From Neisseria musculi (lineage in GTDB: Bacteria > Pseudomonadota > Gammaproteobacteria > Burkholderiales > Neisseriaceae), in contig NZ_CP060414.2 in NCBI RefSeq assembly GCF_014297595.2, forward strand, positions 2,864,410-2,928,409: a stretch of 64,000 bases of DNA, written 5' to 3'. The translations under genes were made by a program, and so were the position numbers. Shown one piece after another: positions 49,389-53,950 of the stretch; position 1 is the stretch's first letter, and every line of letters starts with the position of its first letter. The notes below the pieces were generated by a model. The model did no database searches, was not told the DNA's origin, and saw only the letters and a program-made list of their open reading frames with translations.

Positions 49389-49661
49389 ATGGCAACTAAA
49401 AAAGCCGGCGGCAGCTCTAAAAACGGTCGCGATTCAGAAGCCAAACGTCTGGGGGTGAAAGCCTACGGCAACGAACTGATTCCTGCCGGTTCCATCATCA
49501 TCCGCCAGCGCGGCACTAAGTTCCATGCCGGTGAAAATGTGGGTATGGGCAAAGACCACACTCTGTTTGCCAAAGTGGACGGCTATGTGGAATTTAAAAC
49601 CAAAGGCGCGCTGAACCGTAAAACCGTAAGCGTACGCCCCTATACCGGTGCTGACGAATAA
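49389..49661 (+). CDS. rpmA: Ribosomal protein L27
   Basis: This 90-aa L27 begins [20 protein letters not shown], the flexible N-terminus that reaches the peptidyl transferase centre, with no cleavable extension of the Firmicutes type. AGGAG precedes it, 19 bases after rplU. Confidence 0.98.
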
Positions 49662-49784: not shown

Positions 49785-50424
49785 CACTTTATTTTTGTTG
49801 CAGCCTTGCAGCACCCCGAGCGTGAGAGAGCGCTTTTGTTAAACCACCCAAGCGGCCGGCTGTCTGTAGTGCCTGCGGTTTGATGCCGGGTATCGAGAAT
49901 AAAGCGAATCTGCTATGGCGTAGAATATGTGCTTCAGACGGCCTGATTGGGGTTCCGTCAAGTGCCGCCGGCCGGTTGTTTTGCAGCTAAATTGCTTTTG
50001 AAACAAAAAGACAGCTAAAACAAGTTTGGTTATAAGGGGCGGAACATTTTCTATGGCTGCCACGGTTTGGGCAGAAGCTCCCGCTCTTATAGGCCGTCTG
50101 AAACCGCAGCAGTAAGTTTCAAGCTGTTTTTCAAGTTGTTTTTGATTGTTTGAAATCGGGCGGTTTCCGGTATCGACATGGCGAACCCACTTGCGAATCA
50201 TAACAGCGTTAGTTTGCTTGGCACCCGCTGCGGTTTGCTGTTTTATATTTATTTGGGCGGATTGGCTTTATCGGGCCGTCTGAAAGGTTTTTTCAGACGG
50301 CCTGTAGTTTCCCGATACCGGGCAGCAGGCGCTACAGACAAGACCGGCCTTGCCGGCCGCTTGGGTGGTTTAATAAAAGCGCTCTCTCACGCTCGGGGTG
50401 CGGGGCTGCAGCAAAAATAAAGCG
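49785..50424. repeat. Non-coding segment bounded by about 115-bp inverted repeats
   Basis: The left arm (49785-49900) and right arm (50306-50424, reversed) match over nearly their whole length: CTTTATTTTTG, GCACCCCGAGCGTGAGAGAG, CGCTTTT-TTAAACCACCC, AAGCGGCCGGC, then GTCTGTAG-GCCTGC and GGTATCG-GAA. The right arm carries an 11-base insertion. The 400 bases between hold DUS copies, including a DUS pair at about 50277-50303, but no supported gene. The right arm ends eight bases from the stop of the beta-helix gene. No transposase is present. Confidence 0.8.
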
Positions 50425-50431
50425 GGTTCCG

Positions 50432-52495
50432 CTATAGCACGGCGGCTGCCTGATCTTCCTGAAGCATCGCGCCGCCTGTTTGTGTCGATACGGCATAACT
50501 TTGGTCGGCGGTATTGACCGGTGCGGTTTCGGATGTGTCGATACCCAGTTTGCCCAAATTCACCGGTCGGGCAGTGTCTAACAATTCGGTGCCGCCGGTT
50601 TGCGGTGTGTTTGCGCTGCGTATGGCTGCATTGCTATGGAAAACGATGTTTTCGGTGGCGGCCCGGCTGACGGTGGTGGTGCCTATATCTGCAAAGGCAC
50701 TTTCATCGGACTCGGCTTCAATGGGAAATGCCCTGGCTGACAGGGTTACTTTTTTGAGGGCTGCGATTGATGCGGGGGTGGCGCCGTTGTTGCCCGCTAT
50801 ACCGGCTGCTTCGCTGTGAATATTGGAAATAACGCGCAAGGTGTTGATTTGCTCTGTTTTCAGCCAGTCGCCGTTTTCAAAGGCTTTGGATGAGTCGGTA
50901 TCGAAAGTGTTGTCGGCAACGGTGAGCTTGCCTTTATGGCTTTTGCTGGTGCCGGTTGCACGGACAACCGGCTGCGAGGGCGGTCCGCCGCTTACGTTGA
51001 ATGTGTTGCCGGTTACCGACACGGTGGCGGCATTGCTTTCAACGGTTACGGCTTTGGTGGCGCCTTCGGCCTGGCTTATTTTCAGGGTGTTGTTATTAAC
51101 GGCAACGCTGCCGTTGAGGCGGTCGGCATTTTGTTTTTCTTCGATATAAATCGGTGCGGCAGTTGTTTTTTTTACCGACATGTTATTGCCGATAATGCGG
51201 ATATTTCCGCTTCCGGGACCGGCTTCCACGGCTGCGGTATGGGAGTTGTCTGATTTGCCGAATATGCTGATGAGGTTGTCGGCCGAAGAGCCGGCTAGTT
51301 TGTTATTGGAAATATTTAATGTGTAGCTGACATCTTTTTCATTGTTGCGGGCCTCGATGGCGCGGGTGATGCCCAAGCCGTCTGTGAGGTTGTTAATGGT
51401 ATTGTTGCTGATGTTGAACACACCGGCTTTGGGGTTGATGAATTTTTGCCAGTCTTGGCCTTTGTTTTCTAATTTGATGCCCCGGTAGCCGATATAGTCG
51501 CTGCCGGCATTGGGAATACCGGTGTTGTCGTCTCTGGTGAGGCGGAAAGAAGGGTCTTGTGTGATGGTGTTGTTTTGGATGGTAACTTTATCCATGCTGA
51601 ACTGACGGTTTTCTACGGAGATGCCATACATACGGTCGCCGTTTAATGTGTTGTTTTTGATAACGATATTATTGCCGTCGTGTGAATCTATGCCTTTGCG
51701 GTAGTTGTGGTTGGTGGTGTTGCCGGTGATGGTGGCCCCGTTGTTGTAGCTGCCGGCCATCAGTGAAATACCGTAGCCTGTGCCGCCGTCTTTTTCATGG
51801 CCGTTCCATGCAAAGGTGTTGTTTTCAGCGGTGAAATTTTTTTGAAATGCTACCATCACGCCGGAAACGCGGTTGTGGTGCAGGTTGCTGTCGATAATTT
51901 TATTATTGTCGCCGGTGGGCAGTTGCGCAGCAGTGATTTTGCCGTTTGTCAGGTTGTCTTTTGCACCGCTGGATATGGCGCTGGTCGAGGTAAACAATAC
52001 GCCGGCACGGTTGGCACCGGATACTTCTACTCTGCTGATCAGGGTATGGTCGGCATCGTTGACGACAATGCCGCTGATTTTGCCGAAGTAGCTTTGTCCG
52101 GTGCGGTAAAAATCGGTGGCGGCAGTGTGTTTGTATTGCACGGAAAGGTCGGAAACAAATTTACCGTTTTGCCCGTTAATCCAAATGCCGGCTTTTTCCG
52201 GTTCGGTAGCATTGCTGTTGGGATTATGCACGCCGGTTTGTTTGTGTGTGAACAGGATTTTGGTTTTACCCATGCCGTCGCCGAAAATGCCGGTTACGTT
52301 TCTTGTGGCAGCGTTGATTTCGATGGCTCCGCTGATGGTGATGGTGCCGGTTAAATATAGTGCCGCTTTTTCTTTGTGGGCGGCGGCCAATGCGGCTTTA
52401 ACCGCATCGTTATAGGTGTTGGTTGCGGTTTTGAAGTGGCGGATATCAATGTATTTTCCATGCTTCGCGTGTGTTCGCACAACATAATTTGCCAT
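50432..52495 (-). CDS. Right-handed parallel beta-helix protein
   Basis: This 687-aa protein is made largely of beta-helix (PbH1) rungs, seen as repeated N-rich turns: NNTFAWNGHEKDGG, GNTTNHNYRKGIDSHDGNN, KNNTLNGDRMYGISVENRQ, NNTITQDPSFR and NNTINNLTDGLG. The N-terminal part (TYNDAVKAALAAAHKEK, then LYLTGTITISG) resembles the cap of pectate-lyase-3 and mannuronan-epimerase proteins. No signal peptide is seen; the C-terminus is acidic then aliphatic (MLQEDQAAAVL), as in type I secretion substrates. It may bind or process a polysaccharide. AGGAGATAACC precedes the ATG at 52495. No partner gene adjoins it. Confidence 0.82.
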   Translation of the reverse strand: MANYVVRTHAKHGKYIDIRHFKTATNTYNDAVKAALAAAHKEKAALYLTGTITISGAIEINAATRNVTGIFGDGMGKTKILFTHKQTGVHNPNSNATEPEKAGIWINGQNGKFVSDLSVQYKHTAATDFYRTGQSYFGKISGIVVNDADHTLISRVEVSGANRAGVLFTSTSAISSGAKDNLTNGKITAAQLPTGDNNKIIDSNLHHNRVSGVMVAFQKNFTAENNTFAWNGHEKDGGTGYGISLMAGSYNNGATITGNTTNHNYRKGIDSHDGNNIVIKNNTLNGDRMYGISVENRQFSMDKVTIQNNTITQDPSFRLTRDDNTGIPNAGSDYIGYRGIKLENKGQDWQKFINPKAGVFNISNNTINNLTDGLGITRAIEARNNEKDVSYTLNISNNKLAGSSADNLISIFGKSDNSHTAAVEAGPGSGNIRIIGNNMSVKKTTAAPIYIEEKQNADRLNGSVAVNNNTLKISQAEGATKAVTVESNAATVSVTGNTFNVSGGPPSQPVVRATGTSKSHKGKLTVADNTFDTDSSKAFENGDWLKTEQINTLRVISNIHSEAAGIAGNNGATPASIAALKKVTLSARAFPIEAESDESAFADIGTTTVSRAATENIVFHSNAAIRSANTPQTGGTELLDTARPVNLGKLGIDTSETAPVNTADQSYAVSTQTGGAMLQEDQAAAVL

Positions 52496-52879
52496 AAATG
52501 GTTATCTCCTGATTAAATAGGTGATTGATGCCAAAGGTATATTAAAGCGGGAAAGTATATGGGGTTTTCACACGCTGAAAAAGGGGGCGTTCGGCATGGT
52601 TGCCGGCAACACCGGCTTTTGTAATATTTATTTTGATATTTTTAACAAAATTAACCTGCAAAAATAGAGAAGATTTTTTTGTTTTTCTAAAAATTTTAAG
52701 CAATAGCTTAACGGCATATCAAAATATGCCTCATGGTTGGTAAAGTTGTTGCGGTTGTCGGTCTGAATGTTATTTTTAGTTAAATTTTTATTTTTAAAAC
52801 GCACGTCCAATATGATTCGGAATTTCTATTTAGAATAGGCCGCATCCGATCGGAGAGGCCGTCTGAAAGCTTTCTTGCG
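52496..52879. other. AT-rich region upstream of the beta-helix gene
   Basis: This 380-bp gap lies between two divergent genes. It is much richer in A/T than the surrounding core genes, contains T/A tracts, and has one DUS next to the heptosyltransferase start (52857-52868). No gene is supported. Confidence 0.55.
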
Positions 52880-53950
52880 ATGATGCCGACCAAGCCGGAA
52901 CGTATCCTGATTATCAAATTGCGCCACCACGGCGATGTGTTATTAACCACGCCGGTGGCCGACCGCATCAAACAGGCTTATCCCGATTGCGCCATCGATA
53001 TGCTGGTGTATCGGGAAACCGCCGATATTTTGCGCGACAACCGCCAAATCAACCGTATTCTCACCATCGACCGGCAATGGAAGAAGCTGGGTTTGCGCCA
53101 ACGGCTGGCATGTGAGCGGGCGTTGTGGGGCAGCTTGAAAGCACAGCGTTATGATTGGGTGTTCAATCTTTCCGACCAATGGCGTGCGGCAGCAGTGGCC
53201 AAGTTGTGCGGCAAACGCAGCGGCAGTTTGCGCTACAGCAAGCGCGACAATGTGTTATGGCGGTTTTGCCACAGCGTGTTGAGCGAAGATTTAAAACACG
53301 AACACCATATTGTCGAACACCATCTTGCCGTGCTCCGTCCGTTGCAGCTGGCCGGCGGCTATTGCCCGCGTGTGCGTATGGAAATTGCTCCCGACACGCG
53401 CCGCAGTTTGCAGGGTAAGCTGCAGAACCGGGGCTGGCAGGGCGAACCTTATGTGTTGGCGCACCCGGGGTCGCGCTGGGCGTTTAAGTGCTGGGAAAAC
53501 GATAAAACCGCCCAATTGCTGCAACGTTTGCTCGAGAGCGGCCGCCATTTGGTGCTGACTGCTGCGCCCGACAGCGGCGAGCAGGCTATGCTGGCAGACA
53601 TCGCCGGCCGTCTGAAAGCACCAAAGGGCATGCATATATGGATTTTGTCGGGCTGCCTGAATCTGCGCGAGCTGGCGGCGGCAATCGATGGTGCCGGGCT
53701 GTTTATCGGTGTGGATTCGGTGCCCATGCACATGGCGGCCGCGTTGGACAAGCCCCAGGTGGCGCTGTTCGGCCCGAGCTGGGTGAGCCGTTGGCGGCCT
53801 TATTCGGCGCGTGCCGAAGTGGTGTGGGCGGGCGATTTCGGCAGCCTGCCCCACCCCGACAGCATTAACAGCAACGATACCGCCCGCCTGCTGGGCGCGA
53901 TTCCGGTTGATGCCGTGTGGCAGGCGGTGCAGAAACAGTTGGCAGGGTGA
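52880..53950 (+). CDS. Glycosyltransferase family 9 (heptosyltransferase III-like)
   Basis: This 356-aa GT9 enzyme has ERILIIKLRHHGDVLLTTPV at the N-terminus, HPGSRWAFKCWENDKTAQLL in the donor site and GLFIGVDSVPMHMAAALDKP near the C-terminus. It is closest in pattern to RfaQ/WaaQ, which adds the branch heptose to the LPS inner core. Assignment of sugar and acceptor is by family only. The start may be 52880 or the next Met at 52883. Confidence 0.85.
   Translation: MMPTKPERILIIKLRHHGDVLLTTPVADRIKQAYPDCAIDMLVYRETADILRDNRQINRILTIDRQWKKLGLRQRLACERALWGSLKAQRYDWVFNLSDQWRAAAVAKLCGKRSGSLRYSKRDNVLWRFCHSVLSEDLKHEHHIVEHHLAVLRPLQLAGGYCPRVRMEIAPDTRRSLQGKLQNRGWQGEPYVLAHPGSRWAFKCWENDKTAQLLQRLLESGRHLVLTAAPDSGEQAMLADIAGRLKAPKGMHIWILSGCLNLRELAAAIDGAGLFIGVDSVPMHMAAALDKPQVALFGPSWVSRWRPYSARAEVVWAGDFGSLPHPDSINSNDTARLLGAIPVDAVWQAVQKQLAG

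Follow-up and report, generated by a model that had tools for sequence, protein, structure and literature searches.

The element described here is a single gene on the minus strand of a 64,000-nucleotide stretch of the Neisseria musculi genome (contig NZ_CP060414.2, positions 2,864,410 to 2,928,409; hereafter the window), which encodes a 687-amino-acid protein designated P0001. Its ATG start codon lies at 52495 and its stop codon at 50432–50434, with 687 codons in between; a first-pass annotation of the window, made from the sequence alone, had given the coordinates and length correctly and left the strand unstated. The best reading of P0001 is as a member of a so far uncharacterised beta-helix family, secreted and polysaccharide-active, that occurs in unrelated bacteria and phages. 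The features of the gene are the following, where dN/dS is the ratio of nonsynonymous to synonymous substitution rates and pLDDT the predicted local distance difference test score.

50432..52495, minus strand: P0001 gene, 687-amino-acid beta-helix protein (open reading frame including stop codon; PF13229; relatives; dN/dS 0.16–0.17)
50816..52495, minus strand: conserved beta-helix core, residues 1–560 (AlphaFold2; common to several bacterial groups)
51632..51880, minus strand: candidate active-site stretch, residues 206–288 (H206, N208, Q218, N231, D236, T239, Y241, N264, Y265-R266-K267-G-x-D270-x-H272-D273, D287-R288; conservation; dN/dS 0.05–0.07 over residues 160–300)
50435..50734, minus strand: disordered C-terminal extension, residues 588–687 (nearly all pLDDT < 50; dN/dS 0.33–0.40 from residue 561)
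50435..50569, minus strand: final 45 residues, putative type I secretion signal (L..LG ... Y ... E/D ... aliphatic end; family tails; tail profile)

Residues ~1–560 of P0001 are confidently predicted to form a right-handed beta-helix. The Pfam model Beta_helix (PF13229) matched at E 1.8e-15, above the family cut-off, and AlphaFold2 gave a mean pLDDT of 84 for the full-length protein and 89 for residues 1–587, dropping to ~50 past residue 560, in agreement with the parallel beta-helix of the first-pass annotation. The closest folds were phi29 gp12, the AlgE A-modules, the RbmB lyase and the Sf6 tailspike, which were near ties and are quoted as ties; this ranking rests on VIA-align, preferred because query template-modelling scores in Foldseek against the PDB were low (0.17–0.48 among the matches listed for both models) and the top matches were mixed. 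Many beta-helix proteins in a viral structure library were also matched, without a clear leader, and structures of glycoside hydrolase family 87 (GH87) and polysaccharide lyase family 6 (PL6) were among the fold matches; the catalytic residues of GH87 are three aspartates according to an excerpt of PMC6814745. A search of the PDB with the P0001 sequence gave no match, and searches with family profiles, apart from chance-level hits, gave a stretch of the phiAB6 tailspike (E 0.00067 and 0.00045) and, matched in the N-terminal cap only, two mannuronan epimerases (E 0.008). RbmB of Vibrio cholerae (9OZL, 9OZD), a polysaccharide lyase, has a predicted signal peptide according to an excerpt of PMC11637428, whereas P0001 has none.

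The fold shared with the A-modules of AlgE (AlgE4, 2PYG/2PYH; AlgE6, 5LW3), which were among the best structural matches, would also suit an AlgE-type C5-epimerase or epimerase/lyase acting on a uronate polymer. The AlgE profile, from the sole family so compared, matched over residues 17–233; the two epimerase hits to the N-terminal cap, though weak, and the type I export of AlgE, known from a title in a reference list of PMC7385640, point in the same direction, and the family has K267-G-x-D270-x-H272 within one rung, where AlgE has Y-G-x-D-x-H. However, this look-alike motif lies about three rungs further along than that of AlgE, and in the profile alignment, whose register is unverified in coordinates, Y149 and D178 of AlgE4 meet A164 and A216 of P0001, while D152/H154 fall past a gap in an inserted loop. 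We take Y149, D152, H154 and D178 to be the catalytic tetrad of AlgE4. P0001 furthermore has a longer helix, a different C-terminal tail and no RTX (repeats-in-toxin) repeats, whereas AlgE has RTX-type R-modules. The comparison with AlgE epimerases that the first-pass annotation had suggested thus bears out the fold and, in the profile alignment, not the tetrad. We regard an AlgE-type activity as unlikely; it is a sub-case of the enzyme reading given below, in which the activity type may be lyase, hydrolase or epimerase, so that the odds of the two overlap.

We inspected 33 chosen positions in an alignment of 43 relatives, which combined a set of 21 sequences (12 of 29 loci and 9 proteins) with 22 of 25 newly found proteins, and 17 of these positions were invariant. 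Eight Asn residues (N162, N198, N208, N231, N259, N264, N282 and N309) were identical in 43/43, upholding the Asn ladders noted earlier, and so were H206, Q218, T239, Y241, R266, K267, D270, H272 and D287; Y265 was kept in 42/43 and R288 in 41/43, and positions 236 and 273 were Asp or Glu. E386, constant in a separate alignment of 34 sequences, was rejected as an invariant residue, as it varies once phage-type relatives join. Against the two closest orthologues, dN/dS was 0.16–0.17 for the whole gene (0.19 for a neighbouring gene), 0.05–0.07 for residues 160–300 and 0.33–0.40 from residue 561 onward. From this pattern we infer a catalytic role for residues 206–288; as for a fold without a groove or catalytic residues, which the first-pass annotation had named as refuting its proposal, a conserved polar set is present that may be catalytic. 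The family members are probably enzymes. Alternatively, the groove could bind a glycan without chemistry, P0001 being a carbohydrate-binding adhesin that holds bacteria to host or plaque. This is the main rival, and we consider it doubtful: Arg, Lys, two Asp, two His and Tyr are invariant from phage-type proteins through Neisseria, and the dispersin-B-like and Spherulin4 fusions and the phage tail context of relatives, described below, likewise argue against it. PfbA of Streptococcus pneumoniae (3ZPP, 4MR0), termed an adhesin in the PDB, gave no match to the family profiles at E ≤ 1.

P0001 had been called an orphan, which did not hold: of 7995 candidates scored in a protein search, 191 were relatives at E ≤ 0.001, and the same genome encodes a paralogue of 1031 amino acids, 47% identical to P0001 over residues 4–593. 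Family matches were found in 22 of 60 genomes, namely 22/36 Neisseria (this genome included) and 0/24 from other families of the order. Source names among the 120 relatives listed were Neisseria, except for one Comamonadaceae and one labelled Caudoviricetes. The latter entry (P0107), named Caudoviricetes C5 epimerase 4, is more likely bacterial because its longest contig is 694 kb. Sixty-four of the 120 listed proteins were aligned, and 62 of them, representing Neisseria, lack a signal peptide and end in an acidic-then-aliphatic tail; P0019 and P0099, which have lipoprotein-type N-termini and no such tail, were left out of the tail alignment. A BapA-like N-terminal prefix suspected by eye in long paralogues was matched by no model and was dropped.

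The polysaccharide-type beta-helix assignment, which the structural neighbours above and the fusion partners below support, has to be widened in one respect, as family members also occur outside Neisseria. A scan of a genome collection, which saw only genomes carrying one of two exact peptide patterns, gave 75 stretches and from them 27 relatives: 11 loci in Neisseria (two in metagenome-assembled genomes, MAGs), 10 in Streptococcus (nine named assemblies and one MAG) and six others, in Cardiobacterium hominis, Comamonadaceae bacterium OH2545_COT-014, Ottowia oral taxon 894 and MAGs called Pseudomonadota, Moraxella and Saccharibacteria (L101, L105, L106 and L107 come from MAGs). Most host bacteria of these loci live in the mouth. 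The ends of the proteins, read by eye, and their domains, assigned by Pfam and NCBIfam, differed by lineage. The Cardiobacterium relative (2097 amino acids) has cadherin and SLT domains and a tail similar to those of Neisseria; the Comamonadaceae protein (P0099), Ottowia and the Pseudomonadota MAG have lipobox-like starts, L103 being truncated by a contig end; and the streptococcal assemblies have signal-like starts and LPxTG-type ends in 9/9, with 15 G5 domains in L108, the sole one scanned. In the Saccharibacteria MAG (L105:309-3515), the core shares one reading frame with a DcuC-like membrane region ahead of it (PF03606, E 2.4e-21), an odd fusion that is either genuine or an artefact of assembly.

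Two relatives carry matrix-degrading enzyme domains on the same polypeptide as the core. In L101 (Streptococcus MAG, 2284 amino acids, L101:3583-10437), Spherulin4, core, a GH20 domain and an LPQTG end stand in one chain, and L106 (Moraxella MAG, 2873 amino acids) has GH20, a second beta-helix and the core; GH20 was thus found in 2/21 members scanned with Pfam, one of them also with Spherulin4. The best PDB match of both GH20 domains was dispersin B (E 1.9e-103 and 1.3e-82), and the Spherulin4 domain of L101 matched spherulin-4 structures (E 2.5e-11); these are separate domains, not relatives of the core. Dispersin-like genes occur in 13/36 Neisseria genomes, including this one, in which a dispersin-B-like GH20 gene (L129, G000:C1:2809624-2810649, minus strand) is 48% identical to the L101 GH20 domain, and several of the Neisseria proteins start signal- or lipobox-like (plus-strand entries only). 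According to an excerpt of PMC11357414, homologues of dspB are present in Cardiobacterium hominis and in many species of Neisseria. The association of dispersin-like genes with the family across genomes is weak (11/22 carriers versus 2/14 non-carriers, p 0.039): a strong tie was rejected, with 9/20 carriers versus 2/11 non-carriers (p 0.24) in genomes ≥ 90% complete and three independent pairs on the tree described below giving no clear direction.

Phages are the other setting of the family. Two family loci lie in viral contigs, and a search with a phage-contig protein gave at least 13 proteins (P0139–P0151) that resemble it more closely than does any protein of Neisseria, P0139 being 100% identical. 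The L120 gene follows a tail-spike-like gene, with endolysin and internal-virion genes nearby, and the N-terminus of P0141 matches a PHROGs tail protein; the N-termini of P0142, P0143 and P0144 match a PHROGs family of unknown function. P0144 was rejected as a tail-protein-headed member, as PHROGs tail families match only its residues 167–284 (helix cap). Phage tail-spikes and appendages (Sf6, 2VBK; phi29 gp12, 3GQ8; K5A lyase, 2X3H) have a beta-helix domain in common with P0001, the bacterial family proteins differing in their secretion tails or anchors. The phage-contig members have the same core and signature, as would be expected of a domesticated tail-spike without a role in the biology of the bacterium itself. 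This reading is highly improbable for P0001: the Neisseria proteins share the family tail and the gene is under selection; the neighbouring reading frames are chromosomal by eye; and no family match was found in 50,697 annotated phage records, nor in annotated plasmids. PHROGs searched with P0001 gave nothing, and the protein begins with its helix cap, without a virion-attachment N-terminus or phage gene context, in which it differs from P0141 and L120.

A quick tree was rooted solely on the long phage row; its phage and streptococcal branches are long, and rows lacking a genus name were labelled Neisseria/metagenome. One supported clade joined Cardiobacterium, the MAGs of Streptococcus and Saccharibacteria and a near-identical protein from a metagenome; Comamonadaceae-type rows made up another, and the four assemblies of Streptococcus that were included formed a third, on a long branch. 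This pattern suggests transfer between phyla. A broader reading, offered tentatively and at somewhat less than even odds, is that this is an undescribed polysaccharide-cutting family, marked by N-[YF]-R-K-G-x-D-x-H-[DE], which moved among phages and oral bacteria belonging to different phyla. The same catalytic core would be mounted on lineage-specific delivery: Neisseria and Cardiobacterium would use type I tails, Comamonadaceae lipoprotein anchors, streptococci LPxTG wall anchors and phages tail proteins. The enzymes would attack a matrix polymer alongside poly-N-acetylglucosamine and galactosaminogalactan-like polymers. No description of the family, its signature, its delivery variants or its fusions was found in the titles and abstract starts returned by searches of an open-access library; the kind of protein is itself known.

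Regarding export, the N-terminus of P0001 (MANYVVRTHAKHGKYIDI...) has no export signal when read by eye, its C-terminus (...MLQEDQAAAVL) is acidic-then-aliphatic, and RTX GGxGxDxUx or Gly-Asp nonapeptide repeats were absent by eye from the 687 residues, all as first described. The Neisseria family tails are disordered and of one kind, and no NCBIfam model matched P0001 at E ≤ 1. A tail profile built from 18 chosen tails, that of P0001 among them, hit only the P0001 gene and its paralogue in this genome at E ≤ 0.01; it is insensitive, with 9 hits in 7/37 genomes, all on the beta-helix family, in a set where 12/23 Neisseria carry the gene. The genome also encodes a type I export system, for which a check had been proposed: an LssB-type ATP-binding cassette (ABC) protein (884 bits, cut-off 693), an HlyD protein (323, cut-off 209) and, beside them, an outer-membrane factor above the Pfam OEP cut-off and below that of TIGR01844 (103 versus 225). 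A second exporter (L053:7337-12822), with an ABC protein and an HlyD-like protein near a small reading frame with a double-glycine-like leader, was set aside as exporter of P0001, as its peptidase-like ABC start and the nearby leader resemble bacteriocin export by eye.

Among the 36 Neisseria genomes, LssB (presence threshold E ≤ 1e-180) was found in 22/22 family carriers versus 5/14 non-carriers (p 2.1e-5), and in 20/20 versus 5/11 of the genomes ≥ 90% complete (p 6e-4). A one-gene tree covering 30/36 genomes (without G006, G010, G013, G018, G020 and G033) gave three independent exporter differences, which the beta-helix gene followed in 2.4 on average and never opposed, numbers too small for significance (p 0.25–1), and six pairs that contrast in the beta-helix gene, of which 3.5 on average share the LssB state. 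Allowing for phylogeny, the association thus loses its significance, and the link stays unproven. The beta-helix gene may depend on the exporter, whose presence nevertheless does not bring the gene along.

Taking these results together, we favour, at a rough probability of 0.6, the reading that P0001 is an enzyme with a right-handed beta-helix, secreted via the LssB system, which cuts or otherwise alters an extracellular polysaccharide. Its observed basis is the predicted fold, the invariant residues, the two matrix-enzyme fusions, the phage-contig relatives and the exporter genes, from which we infer the catalysis, export route and biological role of P0001. In Neisseria, the protein, having no Sec signal, would be directed by its disordered C-terminal tail to the LssB-HlyD-outer-membrane-factor exporter and leave the cell there; a polysaccharide chain would sit in the groove along the helix, and the chemistry would be performed by the invariant set around Y241, R266, K267, D270, H272 and D287. 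The target would most plausibly be a biofilm-matrix or cell-surface polymer of the bacterium's own community. The mouth is commonly inhabited by commensal Neisseria and by streptococci of the Mitis group, and the enzymes by which they shape or open the mixed plaque matrix are poorly known. A core common to several phyla, and fused to dispersin-B-like domains in two relatives, may point to a polymer that several neighbours need to handle, and the family gives residues and constructs for testing. If exported as proposed, P0001 would also give the LssB exporter of commensal Neisseria a defined cargo free of RTX repeats.

The DNA around the gene carries the following features.

52496..52879, minus strand: AT-rich upstream region with an AGGAG ribosome-binding sequence directly before the start codon (GC 0.406–0.414; sequence)
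49792..49860, plus strand: downstream inverted repeat, left arm (69 nt, 87% complementary to right arm)
50352..50420, minus strand: downstream inverted repeat, right arm (69 nt, 87% complementary to left arm)
50275..50301, no strand assigned: facing pair of presumed Neisseria DNA uptake sequences (50275–50284 plus, 50292–50301 minus), within the inverted-arm segment

The flanking reading frames (49389–49661 and 52880–53950) look like rpmA and a heptosyltransferase-like gene, named by eye from their sequences, which agrees with the reported isolation of the gene between chromosomal genes. Its GC content is 51.3% versus 54.4% for the whole window, and that of the upstream DNA 0.406–0.414 versus 0.544, so the upstream region is AT-rich as described. 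The short form of the gene has the same place in G021 and G035 and a different place in G023 and G030, and the beta-helix gene lay within 1.5 kb of the neighbouring-gene match in 1/13 other genomes with a close match (G035 outside this set); among those inspected, only the closest relatives share the place, so that the locus is not universal in Neisseriaceae. The first-pass annotation had taken the site for acquired DNA, and the locus features that it listed, including the downstream inverted repeat, are correct; the gene, however, is no isolated acquisition and belongs to a family with a paralogue. The inverted arms bound a ~630 bp segment (49792–50420), and over their full length the arms match nothing in the genome but each other; the remaining hits are short, among them one of 93 nt at 79%. 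GCCGTCTGAA occurs in 97 copies across the window versus 0.13 expected, with 0 within the P0001 gene. The facing pair at 50275..50301, which we take to be Neisseria DNA uptake sequences, presumably serves as a terminator hairpin.
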